This document shows positions 25,145-61,785 of a DNA stretch of 64,000 nt, one piece after another. Source of the stretch: Anagrus nilaparvatae (taxonomy: Eukaryota > Arthropoda > Insecta > Hymenoptera > Mymaridae); contig JAKSXM010000002.1 in NCBI GenBank assembly GCA_022575985.1, forward strand, positions 15,425,001 through 15,489,000, given 5' to 3'. The notes beneath the pieces are model-generated. The model was not told the DNA's origin. It did no database searches and saw nothing but the letters and a program-made list of their open reading frames with translations. The position numbers and the translations under genes were made by a program. Position 1 is the stretch's first letter, and every line of letters starts with the position of its first letter.

Positions 25145-25257
25145 GTAAGTTTGAGTGGGAATTCAAAATTATAAAATATGACTTCCTTTATTAATTAAAT
25201 ATTTAATTAAAAAAACGAATTATTTTAAATAAAAAAGTAATAATTACTTTTAAAAAA

Positions 25258-37652: not shown

Positions 37653-38777
37653 CGATATTATGCAATCAAATATTGAAAAATATAAAAAAAATAAACAATT
37701 AACCCCTTTTCACCCCCTGATACCCTCTAATGACCCTAAAATACAAATTTTAGCTGGCGACTGAGGTATCCATTAAAGTGGTTCAAAAAGGAGATCCGGG
37801 GGGTTTTTGAGGTCGCTAAATACCAGCTAAATACGAATTTCATAATAAAATTGGAAAAGTCCTTCTAGAAAATTCAAAATGGAGGATTTTCCACAATAAA
37901 AAACAGAAAATTAGCATTCGAAAGATTTTACAAGCATAATAAATTCTGTACTGTTTATTAATAAAATATTTTTTGGGTCGCTGATTACGAATTTCACATG
38001 GAAATTCGGAAAAGCTTTGAGAAAAATGCAATATGGCGGATTTTCCACTTAATAAATTTAAAAAAATTAATTAGTTTTGGGCTGATTACTAGGGGTTTTT
38101 TGGGTCGCTGATTACGAATTTTAAATGAAAATTTTGAAAATATTGTGTTTTTCCTCGGTTTTTCCTCAAAGCTTTTCAAAATTTTCATTTAAAATTCGTA
38201 ATCGGCGACCCAAAAAACCCCTATTAATCAGCCCAAAACTAATTAATTTTTTTAAATTTATTAAGTGGAAAATCCGCCATATTGCATTTTTAAAGCTTTT
38301 CCGAATTTCCATGTGAAATTCGTAATCAGCGACCCAAAAAATCCTCAGAAATTAGCTCCACACAAGTAAATTTTATTGTTTTAATTTTTTAAGTGGAAAA
38401 TCCACCAAAATGCATTTTCCTCAAAAATTTTCTCCATTTTCATGTGAAATTCGAAATTAGCGACCCAAAAAATATTTTATTAATAAACAGTACAGAATTT
38501 ATTATGCTTGTAAAATCTTTCGAATGCTAATTTTCTGTTTTTTATTGTGGAAAATCCTCCATTTTGAATTTTCTAGAAGGACTTTTCCAATTTTATTATG
38601 AAATTCGTATTTAGCGACCTCAAAAACCCCCCGGATCTCCTTTTTGAACCACTTTAATGGATACTTCAGTCGCCAGCTAAAATTTGTATTTTAGGGTAAT
38701 TAGAGGGTTTCAGGGGGTGAAAAGGGGTTAATTGTTTATTTTTTTTATATTTTTCAATATTTGATTGCATAATATCG
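37653..38777. mobile_element. Long palindrome with repeated GGGTCGCTGATTACGA units
   Basis: The ends are CGATATTATGCAATCAAATA and its exact complement. Outer arms (37653-37835 and about 38608-38777) match nearly perfectly, including CCCCTTTTCACCCCCTGA and the block around GAGATCCGGGGGGTTTTTGA. Each arm is built of repeated units carrying GGTCGCTGATTACGAATTT followed by GGAAATTC and AAAATGGAGGATTTTCCAC-type words: about three units in the left arm and four in the right. Open frames of 63-64 codons on both strands are mirror images of these units and not genes. No transposase was found. Near-identity of the outer arms suggests recent formation or gene conversion. Confidence 0.75.
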
Positions 38778-39069
38778 GTTTTCCAACTGTTTTTTGCTTG
38801 AATTTTTTATTTTTGTAACATGTTCATTTGGGGGTAGTAAGGGGTGAGTTTTGACCCAGTTGGGGGTTCATGCCCCAATTTTCACTCGGGTTCCATTTTT
38901 CTAGGTACAATTTGGAAGCGATTACAAAAAAAATCAGGTCAATTCATTGATCGCGTGGAAAAGTCAAACTTTTAAAATTTCATGTACCAGGTTCTTCTAC
39001 TATACGTCCAATTATAAAATTTATAATAAATATTTTTTTTCCTGGTAAAAAGCTAAAAAAGCTTGCAAA
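38778..39069. other. Spacer with G-rich patch, no gene recognised
   Basis: It contains GGGGGTAGTAAGGGGTGAG and GTTGGGGGTTCATGCCCC. No coding signal was seen. Confidence 0.5.
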
Positions 39070-39310
39070 AGCAAAAAAATTAGACCGATTCACTCTGTGG
39101 TAAAATTAAACCCGGTTTCGTGCGTAAATGCCCTCTATTTTAAAAATTCTTTGATTATTTTTGAACCCTTGTTTCTTTAAATTCTTCATAGTTTCCTGAT
39201 AATTCTGCGACCGCTTTTTTTAGAGAGTCTTAGTCTGATTCTCTTGATGATGTATCAAAATGAAACATTAAGGTCCCATACATACCAGGAAAGTAAGAAA
39301 TTTAAGGAGC
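39070..39310 (-). repeat. Dispersed repeat family 2, inverted copy
   Basis: Read on the complement it shows AAATTTCTTACTTTCCTGGT, a GCGGTCGCAGAATTATCAGG word, AACTATGAAGAATTTAAAG, and then the TTTTACCACAGAGTGAATCG block. The same order occurs at 47560-47830 on the plus strand, and the first half at 45000-45140. Confidence 0.65.
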
Positions 39311-39559
39311 CCTAAAACGGGTTTTATAGGTATTAAAAATTTTTGTATAAGGTCCTAGTTTTTAGTTTTTTACTCGTCTCTTTTGCTTTCATTTTTTTCG
39401 TAAAAAGGCCCTATAAAAATGGTATTTAAAATAATTAGCGCTTATTTATCTGACATTAAATTTTCATATCACGCAAAAAAAAATAATGGAAAATAGACGA
39501 GTTAAAAACTTTTGAAAACAAAGGAGCTTATACAAAATTTTTGAGAACTTGTAAGAGCC

Positions 39560-40030
39560 ATAAAAAATTTCTCGCTACTGTCACAGAAAAATTTTACACG
39601 GCCTTTGTCTATCAGTAAAGAATGCCCCACATCGCAGTTCACCATCCTCGGCCTCACCTCGGAAGCTAATTTACGTGCGATTTGGGCCATTCTTTACTTT
39701 TCTGGACACGACCCGTAAATATACTATTTCTGCGGCTGCGGCGAGAAATGTCATCTTTGCAGGACGCGCAGCGTCCGGAAAATACGTGCTTTCGGGTCAC
39801 AAACCAGAAAAATATATTAGAAATAGTATATTTACGGCTCGTGTCCAGAAAATTAAAGAATGGCTCAAATCGCACGTAAATTACCTTCCGAGGCGAAGCC
39901 GAGGATGGTAAACTGCGGTTTGGGGCATTCTTTATTTATGGACAAGGGCCGTATAAAATTTTTCTGCGACAGTAGCGAGAAAATTCGATTTCCTTGGCCG
40001 CGCAGCGGCCAGGAAATCGTACTTTCGTGG
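39560..40030. mobile_element. GC-rich foldback with GCGCAGC-loop hairpins
   Basis: Arms about 39560-39760 and 39776-39975 are complementary, sharing AGAATGCCCCACATCGCAGT, CATCCTCGGCCTCACCTCGG and TTACGTGCGATTTGGGCC. The centre is a perfect hairpin, GGACGC-GCA-GCGTCC (39761-39775). A second hairpin of the same design, GGCCGC-GCA-GCGGCC, lies about 39998-40012. Several overlapping frames of 62-85 codons on both strands are by-products of the palindrome. One arm is also present alone at about 53820-53950. Confidence 0.7.
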
Positions 40031-40759
40031 CTACTGTACAGAAAAAAAAATGATAGCCTTAACGCAAAATTTTTTGAACACAAAGAAATTCACAACAGAA
40101 TTAGAACACATTTTTAAGCATCAAGAACTAATCTTGAACAAAAATTTTTTGTGTCTAAAAGTTATTGTGTCTGATTCAAATGTTCAATTTCATAAATTGA
40201 AACACTTTGCTAAACTTTTTTTGTGCTCAATTTTCTGTGTTAAATAATTAGACTTGTGCTTAAAGAAATGGGTTGTAATTTTGGTATATTAATTTCATTT
40301 TTTTTGACATGTTTAAAACTATAAGTTTTTCCAAAATAATAATTTATTATTTAGTAATTGATTATTTATGTCAAAATTTTATTTATTATAATAAGTTATT
40401 AAAAATATTGTAAAAAAAATAAAAAATATTTTCACGAAAATGTTGGATACATAAATTTTAGATTAAAATTATGAAATTAAACATAAAATACTACTTTGTA
40501 CCAAAACAGTACTTACTAAACCAGTTTTACAATAATTTAATTATTATAAATGATTACCAAGGTTGTATAGTCGGTAAGATAATTTAATTTTCGGTTCCTC
40601 ATAGAGGAACCATTGGGATAGGTGAAATTTTGATTTTTAGCATATAAACACGTTTTTAGACCCCCAGGAAACAAAAACTACCCCTAAAAAGGAGTATTAT
40701 GATTATATTATTTTTGAATGTACAGGGTGAGTCATTTTAAAAGATACACCTAAATATTT
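40031..40759. other. AT-rich spacer, no gene recognised
   Basis: The 40060-40250 part carries diverged TTGAACACAAAGAAATT and GTGTCTAAAAG words, similar to 46880-46990. The right end (TACAGGGTGAGTCATTTTAA, from 40721) resembles a terminal motif of dispersed insect repeats, but no partner end was found. Confidence 0.5.
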
Positions 40760-41111
40760 CGAAGACTAAGTTAAATCGAAAAAAATGTTTGGAACAAAAG
40801 TTTCAGGGTTTTGAGGGGGACATCTGATGGCGTTATTAGAAATTGGGTCCTAAGGCCCAAAAAAGGCCCACGGGTACCAACTTTAAAATTTTAAATGGGA
40901 AGTATATTTTTTTATTTTAAATTCAGATTCCGCAGGAATTTTGGCGTTCAAATACGTTTTGGGCCAAAAAAAAAACATAAGGCCCTTTTGTATTTAGGCC
41001 CAAAAATCGATTTTCTAAGGTTTTTTATGATGAAAAAGATATTCCAAATTTTTCTTCAAATATGTTACTAATTTTTTTATTTCGTGCATGTTATGATACA
41101 GAATACATACA

Positions 41112-43741
41112 CACTGAGAAAAACGTTTCTTTGATTCAATGTTATATATCATTAATTTGATAAACTGATTTCATTGAAATGTAGCAATGAAATATTTCAT
41201 TAATTTAATGATATATATTATTAAAATTATTTCAATGAAATATAACTTTAGTTTAATGACTTATTATTTTTTTTTTAAAGAAAATAAAATATTAAGTTTT
41301 TTAACCATGTGAGCCAGTTATTTATTTACTTAATATTTTAAACGCTGTTTTTATCGACTGAAGTTACGATGACCACATATGTGTATTATTTAGTTTTTAA
41401 TTTGTATCCCCCGTGTATTCGCCTATTATTGTTTCGCTATATTATATGTATATTATTCGCACGCGCGCTTCGTATATCATGTAATAAAATTTTGATCCTT
41501 ATATAGTAAAGGAAAGTCAATTTTATGACTTGCGAGAGTGATATTCTTAGAGCGACATCTGCTTATAACAATTATATCAAAATTTTAAAGTAAATAATTA
41601 AATTTAAATAATTGAATATCATTTTTTTAATTAGTTTTAATATTTTACAAATTTTGTTTAAAAAAAGAAATTAGTAAAAAAGTATAGGTGAATATAAAAT
41701 TTGTGAAAAAAAAATATATAATTAAATAAAAAAATTACAAACAGTTAATTTTTTTTAATAATTAATTTATTTATTTTTTTATGTATCAAAGATTAAATTA
41801 AATGGAAAGAAAATCATATCAACATTCTAAATCTATGAATGACAAGATGCATATAATAAAAACAAAAAAATTCTTTTTTTTATTAATTAAATTCTTTACA
41901 AAAATTATAAAAAGCAACTACGTAATTTCTCTCAAAACAATAAGGCAGTATCCAGAATTGGACTTTCTCAAAACTATTTTTTTTTTTAGTCAATGTTTAA
42001 AATTATATCTGAAATATTTAAATTCTCTATCACTACTAGGAAAAAAAAATTAACAGTTGCATCTTTCCCAGTTAGCGGTAGCAAAGAACTGGTTTTAATA
42101 TACTATCTGAGATAGTGAAAAACTGAACTAACAAAAATTAGAAAACCATTCTTGGTTCCTATTCTTCTATTCAATGATTATAACTAATTCTGATAATTTC
42201 AATATTCTATCTCTTTTGGTAGAAAAAATATTCATATCATTATGTATATAGCATTCAAGTTAACGATGCCGAAGGACTATAATATAGTCTTTACAGACAC
42301 TATCTGAGATAGTGAAAAACTAAACTAATAAAAACCAGAAAACCATTCTTGGTTCTTCTTCTTCTACTCAATGATTGGAACTGCTTCTGATAATTTTAAT
42401 ATTCTATCTCTTTTGGGAGAAAAAATATTCATCATTTTATATAGCATTTAAGTTGATATAAAATTATGAATATTTTTTCCAGCCATCAAGTTGATATTAA
42501 ATTATGGATATTTTTTCTCCCAAAAGAGATAGAATATTGAAATTATCAAAAGTAGTTCTAATTATTGAGTAGAAGAAAAGGAACCAAGAATGGATTTCTG
42601 ATTCTTATTAGTTTAATTTTTTAGTATCCAATAGTTTATTAAAAAACTAGTCCTTTGGTATCGTAAACTTGAATGCTATATAAAATTATGGATATTTTTT
42701 CTCCCAAAAGAGATAGAATATTGAAATTATCAAAAGTAGTTCTAATTATTGAGTAGAAGAAAAGGAACCAAGAATGGTTTTCTGATTCTTATTAGTTTAA
42801 TTTTTTAGTATCCAATAGTTTATTAAAAAACTAGTCCTTTGGTATCGTAAACTTGAATGCTATATAAAATTATGGATATTTTTTCTCCCAAAAGAGATAG
42901 AATATTTAAATTATCAAAAGTAGTTCTAATTATTGAGTAGAAGAAAAGGAACCAAGAATGGTTTTCTGATTCTTATTAGTTTAATTTTTTAGTATCCAAT
43001 AGTTTCTTAAAAAACTAGTCCTTCGGTATCGTAAACTTAAATGCTATATAAAATTATGGATATTTTTTCTCCCAAAAGAGATAGAATATTTAAATTATCA
43101 AAAGTAGTTCTAATCATTGAGTAGAAGAAAAGGAACAAATAATGGTTTTCTATATTTTATTAGTTTATTTTTTCACTGTCTCAGATAGTGTCTATAAAAA
43201 CAGTTCTTTGCTACCGCTAACTGGGAAAGATGCAACTGTGAATTTTTTTTCCTAGCAGTAATAGAGAATTAAAATATTTCAGATATATCTAAGGATTGAC
43301 TAAAAAAGAAAAAAAAGAAAAATAGTTCATAGTTTTTTACAATTTAAGATCAAGTCTTATAAAACCAGGCCTTTGGTATCGTTAACTTGCTATATGAAAT
43401 GATGAATATTTTTTCTCCCAAAAGAGATTCAGAAACAGCAGCGTTTCCACCATTATATATTAACATTTTTTTTTTTTAAATTAAAACTTCATTATTTTCT
43501 TTAATTATTGGCATACTCAAAACAGCATAAACTCTGTTATTAAAGTATACCGTGGCACTGTCTCTCTCAGTGAATTCTGAGTTGCGCAGTACAGTCTAAA
43601 ATTACTGAATTTAAAATATTATTAATTTAATGAAATATTTCATTGATTCAATAACTATACTATTAATTTAATAGAATATTTCATTGCTATATTTCAATGA
43701 AATCAAACCTATTAAACTAATGGAATATTTGTCTCAGTGCA
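41112..43741. mobile_element. Inner foldback element with CACTGAGA termini
   Basis: The inner ends are CACTGAGAAAAACG and GTCTCAGTG. They are followed on both sides by clusters of ATGAAATATTTCATT words, then by matching arms (CTGAAATATTTAAATTCTCT, AACAGTTGCATCTTTCCCAG and AGTTAGCGGTAGCAAAGAAC on the left, with complements at about 43200-43300). The CACTGAGA-type end is frequent on insect MITEs, so this may be an independent element nested in the larger palindrome. Confidence 0.6.
42499..43234 (+). repeat. Four tandem units of 184 bp
   Basis: Unit starts (AAATTATGGATATTTTTTCT) fall at 42499, 42683, 42867 and 43051, an exact 184-bp period. The first three copies are almost identical and the fourth diverges at its end. 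Each unit includes CCCAAAAGAGATAGAATATT, GAGTAGAAGAAAAGGAACCA and CCTTTGGTATCGTAAACTTG. Two inverted, more diverged units lie at about 42120-42460 in the left arm. Confidence 0.9.
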
Positions 43742-44578
43742 CAAAATTAGTAACATATTGAAACATCTTTCTTTTTGTACCAGGACCTAAAAAATCATTA
43801 CTGGGCCCTGACAGGGGCCTTATGTTATTTTTTGCCCAAATTTGTATGCAAAATTAAATTTTTCGAGATCAATCAAATTTAAATGAAAATAGTTGTCTTA
43901 TCTGTTTCAAATTTTAAAATTGGGCCCTGTGAGGCCCATTTGGTGCTTTCGAAACCAGAAATTTTCTTTTGTCTTCATGTTTCCTCTATCATGACATGCA
44001 CAGATTAAAAAATTTAGGAACATCTCAAAACATCGTATTTATTCGTACTAGGACCTGCAAAATCATTTTTGGGCCCTGGCAGGGGCCTTATGTTTTTGTT
44101 TTAGCCAAAATTTTGTGCATAATTAATTTTTTCTTTATCATTAAAATTAAAAAAAAAAAGTTATTTAATCTGTTTTCAATTTTAAAATTGGGCCCTATGA
44201 GGTCCTTTTGATTATTTAGGGCCCAAAATCTGCTTTTATCATCAGATATCTCCCACCAAAACTTACATGCCTTAAGAAGAATAGGAAAAATTTTGAATAT
44301 CTTTTTCATCATAAAAAACCTTAGAAAATCGATTTTTGGGTCTAAATACAAAAGGGCCTTATGTTTTTTTTTTGGCCAAAACGTATTTGAACGCCAAATT
44401 TCCTGCGGAATCCGAATTTAAAATTAAAAAATATACTTCCCATTTAAAATTTTAAAGTTGGTACCCGTAGGCCTTTTTTGGGCCTTAGGACCCAATTTCT
44501 AATAACGCCATCAGATGTCCCCCTCAAAACCCTGAAACTTTTGTTCCAAACATTTTTTTCGATTTAACTTAGTTTTCG

Positions 44579-44879
44579 ATTTAACTCCCCTGCCCCCTTC
44601 TGGATTTTTTCTGAAGTAATATCAAGGCTGTACCCTCTTTTTGGCAAATATACTTTTCGCTTTTAATGAAAAAGCACAATTGAAGCGCCGGATACAAGAA
44701 CCGCGCATAATGAAATTTTTATTGAGTTAGAATCAATTAAAATTAAAAAAATAAAAATTCGTGATTTTGAAAAATAGTACTATCTCAACTAATCTAAATC
44801 AGTTTTTACTTTTTAAACAAAATTTTGTTGCTATTATTTTTTTAAAACATTAACATAAAAATGCAGTTTTTTATTAAAC
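44579..44879. other. Spacer without a recognised gene
   Basis: A second copy of the word TTTTCGATTTAAC immediately follows the palindrome edge, then CCCCTGCCCCC. No gene was recognised. Confidence 0.5.
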
Positions 44880-45395
44880 ATTCAAATTTATTAATCACGC
44901 AATAAAATATATTTTTTTAAATAAATGTATACCCGCAAATAGAGTATATTTTGTATTATTGAATTTTTTCTTCAAAACATATTTTGATTTTAAAACTTAC
45001 TATGTATTTAAATTTCTTACTTTCCTGGTATTTATGCGACCTTTTTGATGCACATAAATCAAGAGCAGCAGCGAGTCTTTGTAAATGAGCGCTAGCATAA
45101 ATATTAGGAAACTATGAAGAATTTAAAGCATCGAGGGTTCAAAAATAATCATTTCTTGTCAGCGGCCAAAAAGCACGTATTTCCTGACCGTGGCACGATT
45201 CAAAAATACAAGTTTTCTAGCCACTGACGAAGAAAAATTATGTTTTGGCCTCGGCCGTAAAAAAAGAAAATTTTGATTAACAGCAACAATTTTATTTTCA
45301 TTAAAATAGCTTGTATTTTTCACCCAGTGGCTTTCTTAACCAGGACAATGAATAAGAATCTATAATATCAAATTGAACCAGGAAAATCTAGGAGT
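44880..45395 (+). repeat. Dispersed repeat family 2, copy at 45 kb
   Basis: In the same order as 47440-48110: AATAGAGTATATTTTGT, AAATTTCTTACTTTCCTGGT, GAAACTATGAAGAATTTAAAG, and ATTAAAATAGCTTGTATTTT followed by AACCAGGA. A GC-richer segment (CAGCGGCCAAAAAGCACG..GGCCTCGGCCG) occupies the middle and is absent from the 47-kb copy. It resembles the GC-rich hairpin family at 39.6-40.0 kb. Confidence 0.65.
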
Positions 45396-45689
45396 GTAGT
45401 AAATTATTTTTCAAAATTTTAAATTATATTACAAAAAATAAAAATAATCATAAACAAATCGTACCTATTATATTAAAATTAAAAAAATATTAAATTGATT
45501 TACAAAGGGAGTTCAATATATTTGGAACACCAAATCACATCAAATGGTAATAATTAGTTAATTGTGTTGAAAAAACATACCAAATACGCTGAGTTGAGTT
45601 TAATAAGATAGGGGTTTTTATATATATTATTCGAAATATCATTGTGAACTTGTTTCTTGACCTATCGTCTCATTTTTTTCATGTAAGTG
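45396..45689. other. AT-rich spacer without a recognised gene
   Basis: No feature recognised. Confidence 0.5.
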
Positions 45690-46560
45690 CCACCCTTTAC
45701 TCCCCATAATCCGCAATATTTCATCAGTAATTTTCTTACCGTTACAATCAATAAACCGAATTACCATTTTTAATCAAATATAAAGAATTTTTGAATAGCT
45801 GACAAACTTACAATAAAAATAGGTTTTAAAGGCTTTAAAATTTTTATATAAGCTCGAAGTTTCCAAAAATTCTTTACTATAGCACCTTTTCAATTATTCG
45901 TTTGCAACTCGTTTTAAAAACATAATCCCAATTTTAGGTATTTTTGAAAAAAATGTATTTTTATCACTAACTTTGAATAGCCATATCTCAAAAACAACTT
46001 ACGGAAATCTAACAAGTAAAGAATTTTTAAAACCTTTGGCCTTCTTAAAATTGTGTTTTACTTTGAACTTGGGATATTTCCAGCAGGCTCAAATGGTATA
46101 ATAAATTAGTAATTTTTCCTCCACAATTTGATTTGACCATTTATTTTAAGCTTTGACAGCACTTATTAAGAGAAAAAGCCACTTTTTTCGTTTTCGGGGT
46201 CCCAATTTTCAAGGAACCAGTTTGAAAATGGCTGAAAATGACCAATTTTAATAAATATAGGTTTTAAAGGTCTAAAAAAATTTTATACAAGTTACAATTT
46301 TTCGTAAATTCCTTACTGATCTCTTTAAATATTCGTTTTCAAAATATGATAACTTAAAGTCAGAGTCCTAATTTAAGGTTTTATAAAAATATTGAATTTC
46401 TATTACCATCTTTGTGGAGTCAAAAAAGGTCAAAGTAAAAGAAAAAAATTTTTTAAAATTATATTTATGGCATCAATTTAAAAATTGGTCAGTTCGGGCA
46501 AAAAATGGAAATTTAATTTAGTGACTATGAAGGAGAGACGATCAATGATAAAAATGCGAT
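45690..46560 (+). repeat. Two diverged direct units of about 450 bp, repeat family 3
   Basis: Two successive blocks contain ATAGGTTTTAAAGG, a TTTTATACAAGTT or TTTTATATAAGCT word, then TCTTTACTATAGCACC or CCTTACTGATCTC words, then TTCGTTTGCAAC or TTCGTTTTCAAA. The same words occur as an inverted repeat at 52157-52650. Confidence 0.55.
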
Positions 46561-47211
46561 GTTTACGGGCTCAAAAGAAAAATCTTAGAACAAAAAAATG
46601 AGATCAACCTAAAGGTATTTGATTAATTTACAAGGTAACAACAAGGTAAGCTATACTGAAAATTGATGTTTTTATCAAAATTTTATGTGTAGTGGTTTTG
46701 GGGCAGGGGGAGGTGGAAGTTATTAGGGGGATGAATGAATGGAAGAATGCTAAATATGCTAATTTTGTATCCATTGATTAACCTTAGCAGATTATCTATC
46801 GGGTTTTAATAATATATTTTCTTAATTTTAATTAGTTTTTAAATGATTTGCATAAAAAATTTAATTTTTGTGTCAAAAAAATTTGTGTTGGATTTAAATG
46901 GTGTGCAAAAAATAGTGCAATAAAAAATAATGTGTGTTGAATTTCGTGCGATTTAATTTCGGTGCTCAAAAGTGATCTGAAATTTTTTTTCGTGTTGACT
47001 AAGATCGCTACCCAAATTCAAATCATTGTTTAATGATAATAACCTCTTTAAAATTTTAAATTCCTAATATTCTTAAGACTTTAAATCCTCCTTGACTAAT
47101 TTTCTTAGTTGGCTTTCTGGCCTAATAATAATTTAAAAAAAAATTAATTTTGTTTTAAATAATTTTTGATTTTTTCTTGTTTTTATTTTCGGTGGAAATT
47201 TTGATTTAGGG
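46561..47211. other. AT-rich spacer without a recognised gene
   Basis: A GGGGCAGGGGGAGGTGG patch near 46700 and GTGTGTTGAATTTCGTGCG-type words near 46930 were noticed. No gene was recognised. Confidence 0.5.
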
Positions 47212-47403
47212 ATGACCCAGAATAATACGCGTTTAGGGAAACAGAAAAGTTAGGGTTTAGAATCTAAACATTTAGTAAAGGTGGTAATTACAAATTATAA
47301 AAATACCAATTTGTATTGTAATTTGTGTTTCAATGCTTAGTTGTGATTGAACATGTTCTATGCATTTTGGTTCTGTTTACAAAAACCGGTTATAAGTTTT
47401 TTT
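47212..47403 (+). repeat. 3' half of the GGACTTAGAATAAT dispersed repeat
   Basis: It shares TTAGTAAAGGTGGTAATTAC, GAACATGTTCTATGCATTTT and AACCGGTTATAAGTTTTTTT with the 27926-28265 copy. Confidence 0.6.
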
Positions 47404-47439
47404 ATGTGAATATCTGTTTGCAATTTTTTACTAAGTTTT

Positions 47440-48320
47440 AAAAATTTATTAAACACGCTATAAAATTTCTTTTTATTATTAAATGTAACCCCGAATAGAG
47501 TGTTTTGTGTTATTGAATTATTTTTCAAAAAAAATATATGATGTTAGTACTTACTCCTTAAATTTCTTACTTTCCTGGTATCTATGCGACCTTTAAGTTT
47601 TATTTTGACGCACGCATCAAGAGCACCCGACTTAGACTCCGTAAAAGAGCGGTCGCAGAATTATCAGGAAACTATGAAGAATTTAAAGCTTCGATTGTTC
47701 AAAAATAATTTTTTTTTTAATGTATACAATCTTTGAATTACATTTTAATAGAAGAGTTTTCTGCACGAAACCGCTTTAGCTGAATTAATTTTACCACAGA
47801 ATGAATTGGTCTGATTTTTTTTAAATTTTCTGATTTTCCTCCAGGTTTATGCCAAGATCAAAGGTTTATTGCAAGAAAATAAGAAATAATGAAATGAAAA
47901 AAACCTTTAGGATAATCAACTCAGATCAATAAATTGGTAAAAAATCATCAAACTTATTATTCTTACCCCTTAATACTCCCCGAGTACCCCTAAAAACACA
48001 AAATTGTTAACAACCACAGTAAGAATTTTCATTAAAACAGCTTGTATTTTTTACCCCAGGGGTTTTTTCAACCAGGAAAATTATTAACAATCTATACTAT
48101 TAAATTTAACTATGAAATTCTAAAATATAATTAATTCCGAATCTATATATTAATTGATTTATAATAAATTTTTTGAAAAGTATAAAATCTGCGCCATATT
48201 GAATCTCCTTCATTGATTTTTCAGATTTTGATATTAAATTTTTAATCAAAGACTTCGAAAACCCCTGGTGTGAAAAATTCAAGCTATTTTAATGAAATCT
48301 TGTTGTTATTCGAAATTTTG
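47440..48320 (+). repeat. Dispersed repeat family 2, copy at 47 kb
   Basis: The longest copy of the family includes GAATAGAGTGTTTTGTG, AAATTTCTTACTTTCCTGGT, AGAGCGGTCGCAGAATTATC, CACGAAACCGCTTTAGCTG and TAAAACAGCTTGTATTTTTT. The last block is partly repeated in reverse at 48240-48310, giving a small foldback. No open frame was seen. Confidence 0.65.
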
Positions 48321-48696
48321 GTCAGGGGTGGGGGATAATACAGTTTGTACGATTTTGTTTGACTCTGCTTCTTCCCTGTTCTCCTGATCATAAGAAGAGC
48401 TTCAAGAGAACTTTCAAAAATAGAATATCATTTCTTGTGTGATTTGTATTCGTGAATATATTATATATACCAAACTTTATTTATTTATTAATATTTTTAT
48501 TGTAATATTTATTTTACAAAATTTATTAGTAATATTCGAGGGGGCAAAGCCAAATTGAAAGATTTGGGCAAGTCTAATAATAATAATAATTAAAAAAAAA
48601 ATTGTAAATAAAGTATAATATAATTATAGAAATTTAACAATAAAAGTATAATATATAATATCATTTCTTAGTTGTGGGAACGTTAAATTACGTTTA
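48321..48696. other. AT-rich spacer without a recognised gene
   Basis: No feature recognised apart from A/T runs and an (AAT)n patch near 48580. Confidence 0.5.
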
Positions 48697-50045
48697 TACT
48701 CCAGTAAAAATACGGGGGGGGTCGGTATAATCACCTACCACTACCAGATTTGGTCTACTATATGTTTTTTGGGTCGCTGATCACGAATTTCGGGGTCATT
48801 TTTATGAGAAATGGGTGGAACACCCTTAAATTTGCAAAAACTACCCCTAAAAAGGGGTATTTTTGATGTATTTGAATTTTGGGCGGTCAGATTTGTTTCA
48901 TATAGGTTTTTTGGGTCGCTGATCAAGAATTTCGAAAACTTTTCTATGAAAAGTTAATAATTCACCCCTTAATTAGCAAAATATACCCCTAAAAAGGGGG
49001 TGTTTTTGCTATTTTGGCAGTTTAAGCGTTCAGAAACGGTTCTAATAGGTTTTTTGGGTTGCTGAACAAGAATATTGTGGTATTTTATGTTAAAAATTAA
49101 TTTCTCACCCTTAAATTAACAGAAACTACCCCTAAAGGGGGTGTTTTTGCTATTTTTGCATTGTGAGTGTTAAGATTCGATTCGTATAGGTTTTTTAGGT
49201 CGCTGATTACGAATTTTGGGGAAATTTTTAATAAAAATTTCCCCAAAATTCGTTATTAGCGACCCAAAAAACCTATATGAACCGAATCTTAAGACTGAAA
49301 ATGCAAAAATAGCAAAAACACCCCTTTCAGGGATAGTTTCTGTTAATTTAAGGGTGAGAAATTAATTTTTAACAAAAAATTCCACAATATTCTTGTTCAG
49401 CGACCCAAAAAACCTATTAAAACTGTTTCTGAAGGCTGAAAGAGCGAAAGTAGCAAAAAAAAACTTTTTAGGGGTAGTTTTGCAAATTTAAGGGTGAAGA
49501 ATTAATTTTTAATAAAAATTTCCTCAAAATTCGAGATCAGCGACCCAAAAAACCTATAGGAACCGAATCTTAAGACTGAAAATGCAAAAATAGCAAAATC
49601 ACCCTTTTTAGGGGTAGTTTCTGTTATGTTAAGGGTGAGAAATTAATTTTTAACAAAAAATACCACAATATTCTTGTTCAGCGACCCAAAAAACCTATTA
49701 GAACCGTTTCTGAACGCTTAAACTTCCAAAATAGCAAAAACACCCCCTTTTTAGGGGTATATTTTGCTAATTAAGGGGTGAATTATTAACTTTTCATAGA
49801 AAAGTCTTCGAAATTCTTGATCAGCGACCCAAAAAACCTATATGAAACAAATCTGACCGCCCAAAATTCAAATACATCAAAAATACCCCTTTTTAGGGGT
49901 AGTTTTTGCAAATTTAAGGGTGTTCCACCCTTTTCTCATAAAAATGACCCCGAAATTCGTGATCAGCGACCCAAAAAACATATAGTAGACCAAATCTGGT
50001 AGTAGTAGGTGATTATACCACCAAAACCGTATTTTTACTGGAGTA
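48697..50045. mobile_element. TA-flanked palindrome made of 142-bp tandem units
   Basis: TA-CTCCAGTAAAAATACGG on the left (48699 onward) is matched exactly by CCGTATTTTTACTGGAG-TA on the right (ending 50043). Both arms are arrays of about 142-bp units, each carrying TTTTTTGGGTCGCTGATCA or its complement and a small hairpin (ACCCCTAAAAAGGGGT). The key word occurs at 48771, 48913, 49056 and 49197 on the left, and in complement at 49260, 49401, 49541, 49682, 49825 and 49968 on the right: four units against six. Two identical 61-codon frames on opposite strands are products of the palindrome. TA flanks and CTCCAGTAAA ends suggest a Tc1/mariner-type origin. The ends resemble those of the element at 59232-61174. 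Confidence 0.85.
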
Positions 50046-50059
50046 TTATAAGTAAACCA

Positions 50060-51711: not shown

Positions 51712-52157
51712 AACATGGAACATGCTTATAGGGAGGGGATACTTCAGAACTTTAAATTAAGGGGGGTGGTCAAATTTGTCGTATTTAAGGGAGGTGGTCA
51801 AATTTGTCCTATTGAAGGGGGGGGGTGTCAAATAAGACTTAGAATAATTTCAATTTAGGGACTTTGAAAAATCTGGGCTTAGGATAATATAGGTTTGAAT
51901 AATATAGGTTTAAGGATTTAGAATAATATCGATTTAGGAACTTAAAATAATTCAGGTTTACTTATAATTTTTATTTAGGGACCCAGAATAATTTGAATTT
52001 AGGGGATTAAAATAATTTGGGTTTAGAATCTTAACATCTGGTAAGGTAATAATTACAAATTATAAAATTAGAAAATTGTATTGAAATGTTGTGTAACATT
52101 TATATTATACCTAGTCCTCAGCTGGAAGTAAACATGTTCTATGCATTTAGGTTGTGT
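51712..52157 (+). repeat. Dispersed repeat with internal GGACTTAGAATAAT units, copy 2
   Basis: It begins AACATGGAACATGCTTATAG and ends AAACATGTTCTATGCATTTA, as in the copy at 27926-28265. A segment GGTGGTCAAATTTGTC is duplicated near its start, followed by GGGGGGGGG and diverged units of TTTAGGGACTTTGAAAAATC and AGAATAATTTGAATTTAGG. Confidence 0.65.
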
Positions 52158-52660
52158 TCCCCGTAACCCGGAATTTTTTATCACCGTTTCTCTCATCGCT
52201 ATAGTTAGTTAAAAATAAGTCCATTTTTCGCCAAAAATGACCAATTTTAAAATTGCTGCTAAAATTGTAATATTTTATGAAAATAAGTCTTACAGTCCTT
52301 ACTTACAGATCCCAAAAATTTTGTATAAGTTCTAATTTTTGAAAAACTTTTTACACATTCCTTTTCGATAATTTGTTTAGCAGATTTGATTCTTTAAAAA
52401 AAGAGTCTCAATTTAAGGTCTCAAATATTTTATCACTATCATTGTCGAAACATATCTCGGGAAGGTCTAAAGCAAAATGAACGAGTAAAATATTTTTCGA
52501 AACTTGAAACTAGTACAAAATGTCGGAGACCTGTAAGACTTATATTCATCAAAAAATTACAATTTTAGCAGAAATTTTAAAATTGGTTAGTTTTGGCGAA
52601 AAATAGACATTTGATTAACTAAATATAGCGATGAGAGAGTCGGTGATAAAAAGTCCTTTG
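52158..52660. mobile_element. Foldback element, repeat family 3
   Basis: The left arm has TTTTTATCACCGTTTCTCTC, ATCGCTATAGTTAGTTAAAA and TTTTTCGCCAAAAATGACCA. The right arm has the complements near 52570-52650 (GGCGAAAAATAGACATTTG, TATAGCGATGAGAGAGTCGG). The centre is near 52400. Internal words match 45690-46560. Confidence 0.65.
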
Positions 52661-53815
52661 GCAGATTATAGGTGAAATATCGTTTTCTTATGAAAAAAAT
52701 ATAAGAAAATAATAAAAAAGACCATACAAAAGCTAATTTTTAGATTAAAATCAAATATTAAGATGGTATGATAAAATAAACATAAAAGTTGCCATTTTTC
52801 TAACGACATTTTGAAATTTAATATAACTTAATTATTAAAGAAATATTTTATTAAAGAAAATTTTAAACTTTTAGAAACCCTTCAGGCTTAAATTGGTTAC
52901 TAATGCAAAATATATAAGATTGGACAAAACCAGTAGAAATAGAAACAAACGATTTTCGAAAACTCCGGATGAAAAAACTAGCGATTTCATTAAATTTCAG
53001 AGGAAAAAATATATAAGTGACTCTTGTAAATATTATTCAAAAAGTTTTTTCTTGAAATCTGCAAAACTTTAAAAAATTGGTCCCTGAAAATTGAAACCAT
53101 AAAAAACAAAGAAACGGATTTTTCTCCTAAAAAGCGTGGTGCTGGTGAAATGTTAAAATAAATAGGGAATTCAGATTGTACCGGAAAAATTATTATGGAA
53201 TACGTCTTTAAATGCAGTTTATAACATCAATTGAATCTGATAGAAAAATCTCAAGTCTGTGAACTTTTAAAAAAATCCAATATTTAACGTTTGGGTTGCT
53301 CTGAGACCTTGAATGTTGGAATTTTTTTTGTTTTAATTTAATTTTAATTTTTTTTCTCGATTCTTTTTCTATTTTTTGGTCCTAAATAAACTTATTTTAG
53401 TAAATTATAATTATTAAATAATTGAAAAAATATAAATCCATATCATTGAAAATAATTTTAATTTATTTAAAAAAATTAAGTAATTAGTTTTTTTTTTAAA
53501 TTGAAAAAATGTGATTTTGAGTATTCCAACTCAAAAAAAATTATGGGGCAAGCAAAATTTTTTATGTTCTAAAACAATGTAAAAAATGTTAAATTTGAAA
53601 AAAAATATTTTTTAATTTACCCCCCAAATCGGGGCGATTCTCCCCGAGAGCAACGGTTTTAATTTCAGGACAAGCATTTCCTGCCTCAGGAGACCCTAAG
53701 TATTAGAAAATACCAGAGATCTTAAGGGAAATCGTGGTGAAACTTTTTTTGTGGTCCAGACCACTGTGCGCAGTAGTCTTTTATTAAAAACCAAAAAAGG
53801 CTGAAAGAAAGAAAT
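52661..53815. other. AT-rich stretch without a recognised gene
   Basis: A few GC-richer patches (for example CCCCAAATCGGGGCGATTCTCC near 53620-53645, a small hairpin) were seen. No gene was recognised. Confidence 0.5.
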
Positions 53816-53955
53816 AGTATATTACGACCCATCGTCAGAAAAATAAAGAATGGCCCAAATTGCACGTAAATTACCTTCCGAGGCGAAGCCGAGGATGGTA
53901 AACTGCGATTTGGGGCATTCTTAATTTATGGCCCAGGGTCGTATACGATTTCGGA
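53816..53955 (+). repeat. Single arm of the GC-rich GCGCAGC-hairpin family
   Basis: It shares AAGAATGGCCCAAATTGCAC, GTAAATTACCTTCCGAGGCG and AAGCCGAGGATGGTAAACTG with the right arm of the 39.6-kb foldback. The opposite arm is missing here. Confidence 0.75.
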
Positions 53956-54309
53956 AATACATGATTTCTGTCCGCTGACCAGAAAAAAAACATTATTGGT
54001 TCTGATATTTTAATTAATTAAATCAAAACATTTTTATTTTAATTTATTTATTGATCCTTCTATTTACAACTTGTTTTTGTATAATAATTAGACGACTATA
54101 GTTTCTATAACTATATATTTTTATAGTTTCTATAAACTATAGTTTCAGGAATAAATTCCCATCATCAGGTCTGTATTATAATTAAACTAAATTTATTTAA
54201 AACATTTGAATATTATATTGTAACTTAGGATTACGTCTGTATAGACTGACAATGCTACACGCATCACAAGATACCTTAATTCATTCAAATTTTTTATATT
54301 TTTTGAAAT
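53956..54309. other. AT-rich spacer without a recognised gene
   Basis: A short repeat of TATAGTTTCTATAA near 54098-54143 was seen. No gene was recognised. Confidence 0.5.
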
Positions 54310-54568
54310 ATCAACAAAAAAGACTCGATAACGCGATAATCGATAACGATAATATCGTTAACGAAAATTTTTTTCGTTATCGATAATTTTATTAGCACTT
54401 ATCGAAATGAAATTCGTTAACGATAATTATATATTAGCGCTTATCGAGAAATAACGATAAATATTTTATCGCTTATCAAAAAAATTATCGATAATAATGT
54501 CAAAAATTAGCGGTAACGATTCATTAGTAAATAATGAAATTATCGCGCTATGTCCATCACTGCTTAAA
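54310..54568 (-). mobile_element. Candidate hAT terminal region with CGATAA subterminal repeats
   Basis: Read on the minus strand the block starts GCAGTGATGGACATAGCGCG, which fits the CAGTGNTGG-type end of hAT transposons. Inward from it are many copies of CGATAA or TTATCG in both orientations (for example TTATCGATAATTTTATTAGC, GCTTATCGAGAAATAACGAT). Dense short subterminal repeats are usual binding sites for hAT transposase. A matching second end was not found, so this is either a solo end or a diverged copy. Confidence 0.45.
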
Positions 54569-56233
54569 AGGCAAATGTGACAAAAAGAGGTTACCAGCAT
54601 ATAAGTATGGGAAAACACATGTAAAAAAAATTAAAATTAAAAAAAAAGTGACGCTTCTTTAGAAATTTGTATTTTACAGTTTGCTTTAGTTTTTCCGATT
54701 TTCCGGGTTTTCCTGAGGTTTTTCAGAAAAAATATTGGGCGGGAATTTTTACTACCTACCTTTCTATATAGAAAATATTTTTTAGGCTTATTTAGGGCGT
54801 CCAGAAATTAAAAAGCAAACGGGTGGCTGAGAATTCGAAAAAAATCAAAATTGGAAAAACAGCTGCCAAATCGCAACCAAGCCACCTAGAGCCTTAATAA
54901 CTGGCCAATAACCATATTTTTACATACCAAACACAGTGCCATTGGTATTTTTTAAATCCAAGACATCGATCTCAGACTTGGGTAAAAATAGCTAAGAACT
55001 ACCGATATACTAATTATTTTATTGAAATTCGATAAGCTATTTAAATAAAAATAAAAAAAATCATACACATCAAAAACCTCACTATGTACATGAGCCATTT
55101 TTTCATGCATAACACGAGCGCGGCACGGCAGTATACAGGAAAAAAAACCTCCATAAGTACAAAAATCTGTAGTTGAGCCATTTTTTCATGTATGATTTTT
55201 AGAAATACATGTAAAATTTTTTACCAATACACGAGACCATGTAGATGAGCCATGCGATTTTGCAAATTACAAGTGATAAGAAAATATTATTTGCACCATC
55301 TGATAGATAATTTCAAGTGTGTTGTGTTTCAAAGGATATTAATTATGAGTTTTTGGAAAATTTTTGGAAGGTTTGGAAAAAAAATATATCGCCTATTTTT
55401 ATGAACTATTTAATGCTTTATTTTTTAAAAGTAATGATCGTTAACAATATTCTACATAAATTTTTATAATTCCGAGTGTGAAAAAAAATTTTGAACATTT
55501 TTACTATTTTCAATACTGTTTGAAAATTCAGCAAAATTTAACCAATCTACCAATACATATTTGTTTTGTTTTTCAAAATTTATTTATTTGAATCTGTGGA
55601 ATTAATATTAACAAGATGCCAATCAATTCCTAATATTTTTTTTCTTTTAAATTATTGACGCGTGTATTAGAAATTCTTTTATTGCAATAATTTAATAGTA
55701 CTCTTAAAGCTTTATCACCTTCAACAACAATATGTTCAAGCATTCCTGCACTAAAAAAAGAATTACAAGAACCATCAAGTAATTCCTATACAATGAATAA
55801 GTTTTATTTCCTTCAATTTGATAAAAAAGATGTAAACTTAATTCTACACCGTTTTAAGGACGCTCTGACCAATGAATTCCTCAAATAAGACATATACAGG
55901 TTGTTAGAAAAAAGGCTCAGGAATCGAATGGTATGGGTCTTATAGTCGATCGTCGCGCAAAATTTTGAGATATAAGGATGCAAAGATAAATAAATATTAC
56001 ATTAGTCTTATGGGGAGAATTCAGGAAGTTTATTATTTTTACCATCAAATCGTGAATTCCCAAATGCAGATAGTGATAAACTGAAAGTTCAAAGCTTAAA
56101 GAATTTATTGGTACTTTCCGAATGGTATACGTGGAAAATTTCGTGTAATTAAACGAACAAAATTTTATAACGCAGCAAGGACGCCATATTGATGTTTATT
56201 ATACAAAGCGCGCGCACTTAGGCTATATCGATC
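54569..56233. other. AT-rich stretch with a loose GAGCCAT repeat
   Basis: GAGCCATTTTTTCATG recurs at about 55092 and 55174 and in part at 55245, giving a loose repeat of about 80 bp around a CpG-rich patch (AACACGAGCGCGGCACGGC). The 54660-54930 part resembles the decayed repeat at 32210-32770. No gene was recognised. Confidence 0.5.
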
Positions 56234-56251
56234 ATATACGCGAAGATCGTT

Positions 56252-56380
56252 GAATATCCATCGGTACCGTGAAAACTCTCGAATATCCAACGATAGCGTG
56301 AAGACTCTCGAATATCCAAGCGGAGTGTGAAGACTCTTGAATATCCATCGGTAGCGTGAAGACTCTTGAATATCCAACAA
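56252..56380 (-). repeat. 29-bp minisatellite, left array
   Basis: Units of 29 bp such as GAATATCCAACGATAGCGTG plus AAGACTCTC are repeated about four and a half times. Because 29 is not a multiple of three, the array is open in all phases and yields a spurious 71-codon frame with a 29-residue period. Confidence 0.9.
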
Positions 56381-56571
56381 AATTAGAGTCTTAAATTATT
56401 TTTTTTTCGACTGAAATTTTTGGTGGTAACACTGGCAACAGCTGCTATAGCATTATTTACTAAACAAATGTATTATAATATAATTTTTTAATTTTATATT
56501 CATTCTCGATTTAAAATTTTTTTCGTTCTATAAAAATCTTTTATGCTTTCTGCTCTTTCATGAATATATTA

Positions 56572-57690
56572 CTACAGGAAAGGAGGTAAAATCTGGAAGC
56601 AGTAATTAGAGGCAAGTAGCAGATACTTGATGTAACTTGAATTTTATATGATAGTTGCAAAAAGGGTGTGAGCGGGGGGGGGGTGGAACTCATTAAGGGG
56701 GATTGAAAAAAAAAATAACATATCCAATCGATAAATTACCATTTTTTAACATCAAAACATAGATTGCAATTTTTCATAAAAATGCACCCCTTTCGAGTTA
56801 TAGCGCAATAAAAAGTGTGATTTTCGCTAAAAAAATTTTAAATTTTTTAAAGTTTTTTTAATTTTAAAATCTTGTAGTATTACAAAAAAATTACATATTA
56901 CTAAAATGAAATATTTTCGTTGACAAATAAAGGGATTTTTTTTTCGTACGATTAATATGCGAGGATTAATATTAAAGGAGATATTATGACAAGGCAAAAA
57001 TGGTTGTTTAACGAAAAATTAAGAAACCGGATCGTTCTGGCGTAAATATCTGGAAAAATATTACTTTTACAAAAAAATGATTCCTATCATTTTGCAAGAT
57101 GACAAAATCGGGAAAATTTTGAGTCCAACCAGAACCGTTTAAAATTACCAGAAAAAAAGTTATGGGCAAAGTAAACTTTTTTCCAAAATGTTTCATGCCA
57201 ATTTTTTAGCGCCATCTGGGCTAAGGGGCTTGGAAAAAAAATCCTTTGTTGAAAAGTCGGAAAACTTGTTCCTAAATAACTCCAGCCATTTTTGGCCCTA
57301 TCGGGTAATTAATGTTTATGTTTTGGCCTGATATAGTTGGGTAAAGCCGTGTATTTTTTAAAATATTTTCATTTTTCGGACAGCAGCATGAATATTATTT
57401 ATTTTAAACAGCCAAATTTTGTAGCATTTATTTCAAGTTGTTTTTAATTCAAGTTTTTGTTATAATTTTTCGTCTGCAAGCAAATTTTGCCGTTTAAAAT
57501 TGCCTATTTTATGTTTATAACGGTAAAAGCTCTTTTTTGTCGGGCGAAATTAAAGAAAAATATCCGATCCAATTGAAATGTTGCATATGACATTAAATTT
57601 TGGCGTTAACCTTAGCTTTGAAATGGTTTATTGTACACCTCGTTATCATTAGCCAAAAAAAAGTTATGGCCAAAATTCCTTTTTTTTTCA
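56572..57690 (+). mobile_element. Truncated copy of the CTCYAGTAAA element
   Basis: It begins TA-CTACAGGAAAGGAGGTAA and continues with GCACCCCTTTCGAGTTATAG, GATCGTTCTGGCGTAAATAT, TTTTTTAGCGCCATCTGGGC and TTTTGGCCTGATATAGTTGG, in the same order as 59232-60370. The second arm is missing. No coding capacity was found; the 62-codon minus frame at 57008 is chance. Confidence 0.7.
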
Positions 57691-59229
57691 GCAATTATAA
57701 AAAATTTTTATACTTAATCCATTAGGTCCCTATATTTCTAAGTGTTATGAAAAATTTTCGTACAGTACCGTATGTTTAGATGATAATTCAATAAAATGCT
57801 GCTATAAAATTTCAAATTCCGGATTTTTTCAGCTGTAAGTTAGCCGTAAAACCTAAAGTAAGTAATAAAAACGGTACAAAAATCAAAGATTTGTGATTTT
57901 TTCGTGTAAATATTTAATTTCATGGAAAATTTTTACACGACAAATGTTTATAGGCAGGGAGTTTTTTAAGCACGTTATTGGGGGAGGGGAGGGGGGGGGC
58001 AAATGAACTTAGAATTATTTAAAATTAGAGACTTAGAATGATTTCAGTTTAGATTTAAAACTGAAAATTATTTTCATTTAGGGACTTTGAATAATTTTGA
58101 TTTAGGGACTTAAAATAATTTTTAATTCCAAACTTAGAATAATTTCAATTAAGGAGTAAAGAATAATAAGGATTTTAAGAGTTGAAAACTATTTTTTTGT
58201 CTAGCTTAAGGCAAGTTTCTTTGCTATGAACGCTATTTTAAAGGATAAGGGGCACTAAAAAAACTTAATAACGTTTTTTTCATTTTTTAAAATTTATGGT
58301 AATTATAGTTAACCAAAAACTATGTCACAGATAGGAGATATTGGTCTGAGATCGTACCCATAATTCATAACCGTGTATGCTTAGCAGCCAAAAATACTTT
58401 AGTAAATTATCAAAATTGGGACGAGGTGCCGCAATGAGCCTAAGTAGGCATCATTGTTCGATATTAATAAGCCAGTAAAAAAATTTGTAGCCAAAAATTA
58501 TGTCACAGATGGGAGAAAAAAATGCTCTATAATTTATAAACAAATAACTATAACTCATTACTGAAGAGCTTTAGATAAAAATTTTCTACGACACACCCCC
58601 CTGAAATTGAAAGATCTTTAATATGAGCCAAGTAGAATTTTGATCGAAGTTATCCATATCTGCGAACTCAGGCTTTTATGACCTAAAAATTTCTAAAATT
58701 TAACATGACGTATTTAATTAAACAAATAAACATTTTCAATTTTTTTTATATTCTTGTATCAAATACTGAAAAGCATTGAATATTTTATTAAAAAATTATT
58801 ATAAATAAATATATGGTTAAAAAATCTCGATTTCAAAATGTGCTGTGAGAAAACACCCAGTTTCGGAGAAAGCGTCTTTAATTATCTTCAGTATAATTTT
58901 GACTAAAAAAGTTGAATTAAAACAATATTTTTTAACAATAGCAGCTATTTTGAGCTTGAATCAGCTTGAATAAGAAAATAGAACAGAAATTAATAGGAAA
59001 GCAGTTTTAAATTATGTGTAATAGACGTGACAACACTGTTTAACTGTGTTATACACTGTTTCAATGTCTCAGGCAGAAAGAACTAAATTAAAAATTTTTA
59101 TTTTTAATATCGCACTGATGTTATTTTCCATTTTATTTAATTTATATAATAATTTTAATTTATTGATAACTTTTTTACCAAATCAAATAATGAAAAAATT
59201 TATACAATTTTACAATTTTTTTCAATTAC
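57691..59229. repeat. Spacer between element copies, with a partial dispersed repeat
   Basis: 57940-58180 carries ACAAATGTTTATAGGCAGGG, a GGGGGAGGGGAGG run and units of GGACTTTGAATAATTTTGAT, matching the 5' half of the 27.9-kb repeat. The remainder (58200-59229) has two related blocks around ACCAAAAACTATGTCACAGA and AAAATTATGTCACAGATGGG. No gene was recognised. Confidence 0.55.
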
Positions 59230-61176
59230 TACTCTAGTAAAGGAAGTAAAAACTGGCAGGACTAATTAGAGGCAAATTGCAGATACTTGAAGTAATTTGA
59301 ATTTTGTTAAGAAAGGTGCCCAGTATCCGAGTAAACAACTTCCGTTACTGGGAAAAAGCGCGGGGGGTGGGGGGTGGGGGAGGTTGGAACTCATTGGGGG
59401 GAGTTAAAAAAAATAATGTAAACAATCGATAAATTATCATTTTTTAACATAAAAAACATTGATTGCAATTTTTCATAAAAATGCACCCCTTTCGAGTAAT
59501 AGCGCAAGGAAAAGTGTAATTTTTGCAAAAAAAATTTTTTACTTTTTTTAGTTTTTTTAATTTTATTTGAAATCTGGTAGAATTACAAAAAATATTATAT
59601 ATTACTAATTTGAAGTATTTTTGTTGACAAAGACAGCGGTTTTTATTTTTTTTGTGTACGAAAAATATTAAAGGAGATATGACAAGTCAAAAATGGTTGT
59701 TTAACGAAAAATCAAGAAACCTGATCGTTCTGGCGTAAATATCTGGAAAAATATTACTTTCACAAAAAAAAATTATTCTTATCATTTTTTAAGATGATAA
59801 AATTGGAAAAATTTTGAGACCACCTAGAACCGTTCAAAATTACCAGAAAAAAAGTTATGGGCAAAAAAATTTTTTTTCCAAAATTTTTCATGCCAATTTT
59901 TTAGCGCCATCTGGGCTGAGTTGCTTCGAAAAAAAAATCCTTTGGTGAAAAGTCAGAACACATGTTCCTAAATATGTCCAGCAATTTTTGACCCTATCGG
60001 GTAATTATTGTTTATGTTTTGGCCTGACAAAGTTGGGTAAAATCGTTTATTTTTTAAAACATTTTCAGTTTTTGGCCAGCAGCTTGAACATTATTTATTT
60101 TAAACATCCAAGTTTTTTAGCATTTATTTCAAGTTGTTTGTACTTCAAGTTTTTGTTAAAATTTTTCGTCTGCAAGAAGATTTGGCCGTTTAAAATTGCC
60201 TATTTTATGTTTACAACGGTATAAATGCTCTTTTTTGTCGGGCGAAATTAATGAAAAATGGCCCATCCAATTGAAATTTTGCATATGACATGAAATTTTG
60301 GCGATAACCTTAGCTTTAAAATGGTTCATTGTACATCTCATTATCATTAGCCAAAAAAAAGTTATGGCCAAAAATCCCATATGCAAGAACGATTCAGTTT
60401 CTTCATTTTTAGTTAAGCAACCATTTTTGTCATGTCATGTCTCCTTTAACATTAATAATTGTACAAAAATAAAAAAAAAATCACTTTATTTGGCCCTCTC
60501 TACACCAGCACATAATTATGTTTTATGATAATCATGTTTGTTAGATATTTTGTGGTGTAGCTGGGATATTCGAAATTAAAGTTATTACAAAATGGCGCCA
60601 CTAGTAGTATCAGTAAATATTTTTAATAAAAATTAAGCAATAAAATGTAATTAAATGGTATTTTAATTGTAGATTAAGTTATTTATTATAAAAATTATAA
60701 ACAATTTATGTAACTAATAAGTTTTTAGTGGGTTATAATCATTTAAATATGTAATTTTGAGGTTATGTTTTTAGTACAGTGTAGCTGGGAAAAAAATATC
60801 CAACAAACATGATTATCATAAAACATAATTATGTGCTGGTGTAGAGAGGGCCTTTGTCAACTAAAATACTTCATATAAGTAGTATACAATTTTTTTTGTA
60901 ATACTAACAGATTTTCAGTAAATTTGAAAAAACTTTAAAATCACACTTTTCCTTGCGCTATTACTCGAAAGGGGTGCATTTTTATGAAAACTTGCAATCA
61001 ATGTTTTTATGTTAAAAAATGATAATTTATCGATTGTTTACATTATTTTTTTTTAAACCCCATCCAAGGAGTTTAACCCCCCCCCCGCGCTTTTTCTCAG
61101 TAACGGAAGTTGTTTACTCGGGTACTGGGTACCTTTCTTGACAAATTCCAAAAAATTTACTTCCTTTACTGGAGTA
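59230..61176. mobile_element. TA-flanked foldback element with CTCYAGTAAA ends
   Basis: TA-CTCTAGTAAAGGAAGTAAA (59230 onward) is mirrored by TTTACTTCCTTTACTGGAG-TA (ending 61176). The arms share CCGTTACTGAGAAAAAGCGC and GCACCCCTTTCGAGTAATAG words and their complements. The right arm is interrupted by a Harbinger-type MITE (60492-60852). TA flanks suggest Tc1/mariner-type transposition. No transposase was found, and frames of 63-78 codons inside are unsupported. Confidence 0.75.
60489..60855. mobile_element. Harbinger-like MITE inside the foldback
   Basis: The element (60492-60852, 361 bp) begins GGCCCTCTCTACACCAGCAC and ends with the exact complement. The arms also share ATAATTATGTTTTATGATAA. 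It is flanked by TTT on both sides, and the corresponding empty site (CTTTATTTGTC) is visible in complement at about 56922-56933 in the other copy of the host element. A 3-bp duplication and GGCC termini point to PIF/Harbinger, although TTT instead of TWA is atypical. Confidence 0.8.
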
Positions 61177-61615
61177 TACGTCATTGAAGTGAAGTTTTGT
61201 CAACTGACTGATTTGTCAAACTAAAATTACATAACTAATAAAAATTTTTTTTTTAATTTTTATACAAATTTTTCTTTTCAAAAAATAAAAGTCAAAAAAT
61301 TTAAATAAAAGTAAGTTAGATATATTATTAGATTCAAAACGAGAATTTTTTTTTCAAGCACCGGTTGTTTTAATATAGTTTTAGGAAATATGACACACAT
61401 ATACACAGACTTACAATAATATAAGTTTGTCATGAATTAATTCAGTGCTTAAGAAAAAATATTGTATATAAAATTATTATCTGAGATGAAAAAAAACTAA
61501 AAACAAAGAAATACGAAAGAATAAAAAAAAAAATAAAATATACTATAAAACAGTATTCAATTACATTGATAATCAGTGTTACCACTAAAAATTTCAGTAA
61601 AATAAAAATAAATAA

Positions 61616-61768
61616 GGATATTCAAGTTTTTTCCACTCGTGTTGGATATTCAAGAGTCTTCACGCTACCGATGGATATTCGAGAGTTTTCACGCTCACGT
61701 TGGATATTCAAGAGTCTTCACGCTACTGATGGATATTCGAGAGTTTTCACGGTACCGATGGATATTCA
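61616..61768 (+). repeat. 29-bp minisatellite, right array (inverted)
   Basis: GGATATTCGAGAGTTTTCAC- and GGATATTCAAGAGTCTTCAC-type units are the complements of the 56252-56380 array. About five units are present. The 74-codon plus frame across it is a by-product. Confidence 0.9.
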
Positions 61769-61785
61769 ACGATCTTCGCGTATAT

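Follow-up and report, generated by a model that had tools for sequence, protein, structure and literature searches.

Within a 64-kb stretch of the Anagrus nilaparvatae genome (contig JAKSXM010000002.1, positions 15,425,001 to 15,489,000 of the forward strand; hereafter the window), the region from 37 to 62 kb holds the palindromes A, B, C-outer with C-inner inside it, and D, together with the inverted ends of an element designated E. These palindromes are most probably separate non-autonomous terminal-inverted-repeat (TIR) DNA transposons of the foldback type lying in a repeat-rich region, with transposases from elsewhere in the genome presumably mobilizing them in trans. Each arm consists of an outer domain and tandem units, and two recombination processes would compete inside a palindrome. 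In the first, one whole arm would be copied onto the other, by gene conversion or by break repair from the opposite arm, leaving units of the same rank near-identical; in the second, whole units would be added or removed within one arm, by unequal exchange or slippage, leaving the arms unequal. We infer this conversion mechanism, the order of events and any role of the units as binding sites. The anatomy itself is directly visible: long inverted arms carrying tandem units, the structural mark of foldback elements, are present, and the case for a foldback-like design is strong. A preliminary description of the window had proposed a class of foldback-like, non-autonomous elements; such elements are indeed the best-supported reading, but "a class" is too strong a term, as A, C-outer, C-inner, D and E seem to have dissimilar ends, a difference formally tested for A against D only.

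The window is AT-rich, with 20-35% G+C per kb. Its inverted repeats were scored by self-BLAST of the window against a null of 20 Markov-1 simulations of 27 kb each, in which the maximum score was 51.8 bits. In comparison, the inverted repeats reached 676 (A), 495 (C-outer), 542 (C-inner), 861 (D) and 240 bits (E), far above the null, and so they are not products of chance. All five unit designs named in the preliminary description are present with the arm counts it gave. It had also counted four palindromes of a single design; the design stands, with the correction that C-inner sits within C-outer.

Units of the same rank are mostly near-identical between the arms of A and D

Palindrome D (48696-50046) ends in CTCCAGTAAAAATACGG with TA on both sides and is built of units of ~142 bp, its GGTCGCTGA-type motif occurring in 4 copies in the left arm, one of which reads GGTTGCTGA, and in 6 copies in the right. 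Palindrome A (37653-38777) has a terminal domain of ~158 bp on the left followed by GGTCGCT units, with 3 motif copies in the left arm versus 4 in the right; this count agrees with the earlier one, but the units are ~124-165 bp long and not the short motif repeats that had been described.

Comparison of the complete units, with the incomplete central units left out, shows that, in both palindromes, units matched by rank between the arms are for the most part 99-100% identical. In D, the cognate pairs L1/R1 and L2/R2 are each 99% identical, versus 74% for L1 and L2 of the same arm, while L3 is 91% identical to R3 and likewise to R5, which are themselves 94% identical. In A, L1 and R1 are 100% identical apart from an 11-bp insertion in L1, L2 and R3 are 99% identical, and no left-arm unit closely matches R2. 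Adjacent units of one arm, by comparison, are 64-79% identical in A and D. In these palindromes, entire arms appear to have overwritten one another, units being lost or gained subsequently. The simplest account would be an old, diverged array copied whole between the arms, with a one-sided step of one unit in A and of two in D; with a single copy, a left arm that lost units looks the same as a right arm that gained them. As far as sequence comparison can tell, this arm-copying pattern shows that recombination acted on the palindromes after their formation. By eye, the missing A unit ends inside the TTTTTTGGGTCGCT core, and D L3 carries R3 sites as well as R5 sites, as a deletion between R3 and R5 would leave.

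These unit comparisons also bear on the idea that the palindromes are assembly artefacts, arising from foldback reads or misassembled haplotypes. That the analysis covered a single assembly speaks for such an origin; the arms, however, differ by substitutions along their length, in unit number and in unit order, as a mirrored read would not, and we consider an artefact barely credible.

A short core is common to the units of A and D

According to the preliminary description, the primary sequences of the palindromes differ. A and D, however, are not entirely dissimilar: their two unit types have a core of ~26 bp in common, TTTTTTGGGTCGCTGATYACGAATTT (the GGGTCGCTGA core). In the joint alignment of A and D units, the best 30-column window, which holds the core, has a mean pairwise identity of 0.79 versus 0.56 elsewhere. 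A permutation test of core conservation, in which columns are taken as independent and the units are related and few, serves as a rough guide and gives p ~0.03 for D alone. Outside the core, no longer local alignment between A and D units was obtained, and the terminal domains of A and D are unrelated, with 118 of 300 shuffles reaching their alignment score. Two D-unit-like fragments lie outside D, at 35541-35596 and 40660-40727 (profile E 7e-5 each).

Since the ends of A and D are unrelated and their units are nonetheless built on the same core, unrelated transposons may have captured this core as a module or exchanged it among themselves, and its retention would reflect binding by a transposase or a host protein, with whole arms meanwhile overwritten again and again by their partners. 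We hold this to be rather unlikely; if true, the palindromes would evolve as two-copy conversion units holding a shared cis-module.

A core better conserved than the remainder of each unit, along with the long, nearly identical arms of A and D, might be expected of host loci whose long hairpin RNA gives rise to small RNAs. However, the conservation test is weak, with few and related units, the window has no Rfam match at gathering scores, and the remaining palindromes show the decay and nesting of ordinary repeats. A hairpin-RNA origin is accordingly very improbable. No tRNA is present in the window either.

Units of one arm expanded in C-inner

Palindrome C-outer (40759-44579) has outer arms at 40759-41054 and 44285-44579 that are 97% identical, and its ~270-bp units number one on the left (40786-41056) and three on the right (43744-44008, 44011-44283 and 44281-44552). 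Inside it, C-inner (41977-43312) carries 184-bp units, two in the left arm versus four in the right. When 170-bp slices around a shared anchor were compared, R2, R3 and R4 proved 90-99% alike, and pairwise identity among L1, L2 and R1 is 85-87%; judged by these slices, the units of one arm expanded on their own.

The C-inner unit also contains a degenerate copy of the terminal motif, and none of 300 shuffles reaches the terminal-versus-unit score. The corresponding counts, again of 300 shuffles, are marginal for A (7 and 9), C-outer (5) and E (8). The terminal sequence was likewise considered as the origin of the D units and rejected, the score not being significant (117 and 97 of 300 shuffles reach it). 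Beyond the right end of C-inner lies a degenerate piece of the 184-bp type at 43352-43428, and self-BLAST matches extend to 43428; either the array once extended further or a fragment was left behind.

Palindrome B (39565-39985) has 167-bp arms that are 90% identical, and the window contains relatives of it at 53810-53951, at 1799-1910 and, as a weak match, at 45213-45268. In the stretch 39565-40060, a spacer module around GGACGCGCAGCGTCC recurs in diverged form just beyond the right arm, as GGCCGCGCAGCGGCC. B too may be built of units.

Element E contains nested insertions

Element E (56231-61788) has arrays of 29-bp units inverted at its two ends, with copy numbers of 4.3 and 4.7 by Tandem Repeats Finder, and its interior consists of other repeats. 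Its unit ranks are mixed: L1/R1 and L4/R4 are 100% identical, L2/R2 86% and L3/R3 79%, and L4 is also 97% identical to R2. On the evidence of these unit comparisons, the palindromes have a common design, not one history.

Within E, a ~1.1-kb direct duplication links 56568-57679 and 59225-60377 (83% identical). A nested, TA-flanked element with ends TACTCYAGTAAAGGAAGTAAA lies at 59230-61176, and 56568-57679 is a duplicate of its left part. The nested element and D have the same ends, CTCYAGTAAA directly adjoining TA at all four, and their interiors differ. The looser pattern CTYYAGTAA occurs six times on both strands of the window, and four of the six occurrences are these ends. The 59230-61176 element in turn contains a 361-bp miniature inverted-repeat transposable element (MITE) at 60492-60852, with ends GGCCCTCTCTACACCAGC and a 3-bp TTT duplication on both sides. 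When its flanks are joined, they give the sequence of the paralogous stretch near 56925, that is, an empty site; a second paralogue near 59630 aligns across the MITE site and differs just beyond it.

Evidence for and against transposition

Several observations weigh against reading the palindromes as transposons with arm-to-arm copying. The rank pattern is not general, with D L3 only 91% like R3 and R5, E mixed and C-inner without the pattern. No target duplication rises above chance: with boundaries free to shift by 6 bases, direct repeats of 4 (A), 6 (C-outer), 4 (C-inner), 5 (D) and 4 bp (E) were found, and among 400 random coordinate pairs, repeats of at least 4 bp occurred in 258 and of at least 6 bp in 49. 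The clean target duplications looked for at these five thus did not emerge. D and the 59230-61176 element do have TA on both sides without any boundary shift, but a 2-bp, self-complementary TA is weak evidence. Finally, by self-BLAST, each of A, C-outer, C-inner, D and E is present in full only once within the 64-kb window. Because no target duplication exceeds chance, we can only infer the mobility of these five themselves.

MITEs of the Tc1/mariner type have ends flanked by TA. D and the 59230-61176 element are likewise TA-flanked, although the self-complementary 2-bp TA makes the likeness a weak one; no empty site was seen for D or the 59230-61176 element, and no transposase ORF was found in them.

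The same observations could be taken to favour local rearrangement, whereby resident tandem satellite-like arrays would have been turned into palindromes when breaks or stalled forks led to their inverted duplication, with no transposition involved. Target duplications not beyond chance and the lack of other full copies within the window would suit such an origin, as would the A-like core in two palindromes 10 kb apart, and one inverted array duplication followed by unit loss would also leave the rank-by-rank identity of A and D. On the other hand, the ends of D are the same as those of an unrelated nested element, and A, C and E each have their own outer domains. Moreover, the arms differ in age (75.8-95.4% identity in the alignments), so that one local event is insufficient. 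The preliminary description had offered a single local palindrome-making mechanism as an option; it is not needed, given the transposon-like ends shared by D and the nested element, the empty site of the MITE and the relatives of B elsewhere in the window. We regard local rearrangement as an unlikely origin and retain that of separate foldback-type transposons.

As to coding capacity, the window has 179 open reading frames (ORFs) of at least 55 aa, stop to stop. A Pfam scan at E 0.01 comprised 175 sequences, in which 173 of the 179 ORFs were represented letter for letter, as were all 66 ORFs overlapping 37653-61788. No transposase or THAP domain was found in the ORFs scanned, where spliced or heavily decayed transposases could escape, in agreement with the earlier statement that none of the palindromes encodes a transposase. 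Only F-box models matched convincingly (E 5.2e-6 and 2.4e-4); the matches to five further families (E 0.003-0.008) are weak and include no transposase. At 371 aa, the longest ORF (62195-63310, minus strand) is the only one exceeding 120 aa and has no protein-search match at E 0.001; it probably carries the F-box match, for which the scan output names no member.

Other repeats lie among and around the palindromes. Inverted repeats beyond those first described are found at 39565-39985 (B), 52175-52652 and 7071-7788 and as arms at 25252-25589 and 26295-26660. A dispersed repeat family, with copies 74-78% identical, is interleaved with the palindromes at 39073-39309, 44862-45390 and 47419-48122. 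At 30645-30904 lies a 128-bp unit in 1.9 copies that by eye contains CGACCCCGAAAAACCCC and somewhat resembles the A and D units, and that the unit profiles do not list at E 1.

Comparison with known foldback elements

The palindromes were compared with three published systems. Tetris, a foldback element of Drosophila virilis, is described as non-autonomous, with ~220-bp tandem units in its TIRs and alleles differing by one unit (PMC4079207). It resembles the present palindromes in having long inverted arms made of an outer flanking domain and tandem units, and part of its unit also occurs in the outer domain, as in C-inner; it differs in its target duplications of 8-10 bp, there being none beyond chance here, and the likeness is one of described structure (PMC4079207).

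In Galileo, of the P superfamily, a single copy is reported to carry different numbers of tandem repeats in its two TIRs; the TIRs within a copy are 98-100% identical, and the authors propose that one was repaired from the other (PMC3573991). Unequal unit numbers between TIRs and high arm identity are thus common to Galileo and the palindromes, whereas transposase-bearing copies are described for Galileo and none was seen here, the TIRs again being likened by description only (PMC3573991). Transposase binding sites are reported within the Galileo tandem repeats (PMC3688188), which makes a binding role for the units described here plausible.

Tm1, a Mutator/Foldback element of root-knot nematodes, has two TIRs that by its published account differ in size through unit number and average 93.15% identity within an element (PMC3169594). 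In style, the 29-bp units of E come closest to it, but the units of Tm1 measure 14 bp, and it has target duplications of 9 bp and a related transposase, features not seen here (PMC3169594). The 8-10 bp target duplications of Mutator-type foldback elements such as Tetris and Tm1 were not found at A, C-outer, C-inner, D or E. The foldback-like design is well supported, but we do not claim membership in the Tetris, Galileo or Tm1 family.

Novelty and significance

That the arms of one element can differ in unit number has already been published for Galileo and Tm1, as have such differences between alleles for Tetris. Among paper full texts searched for the repeat strings, only an 11-base string matched, in six papers that are biomedical by title, and we take this as chance. 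Exact scans of viral contigs gave no match for the 26-base core, for a 28-base piece of the 29-bp unit or for a B-family string. A 16-base piece of the core does occur in 11 viral contigs, which we likewise take as chance: none extends the core past 16 bases, and no fetched locus aligns to the window at E 1e-4. A genome contig collection gave no matches, nor did D against phage records; the contig and phage collections scanned are non-eukaryotic, and absence there says little. Overall, the kind of structure is known, while the primary sequences look new.

The palindromes add what are probably new families of the foldback type, from an AT-rich eukaryotic genome. Their most informative detail is that the arms of A and D match rank by rank, the diverged unit ranks forming a clean internal record that separates arm-to-arm copying from expansion within an arm. 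As palindromes of this kind are known to act as substrates for chromosome inversions and for the birth of satellites, according to the accounts of Galileo (PMC3573991) and Tetris (PMC4079207), this record is useful, if not surprising.

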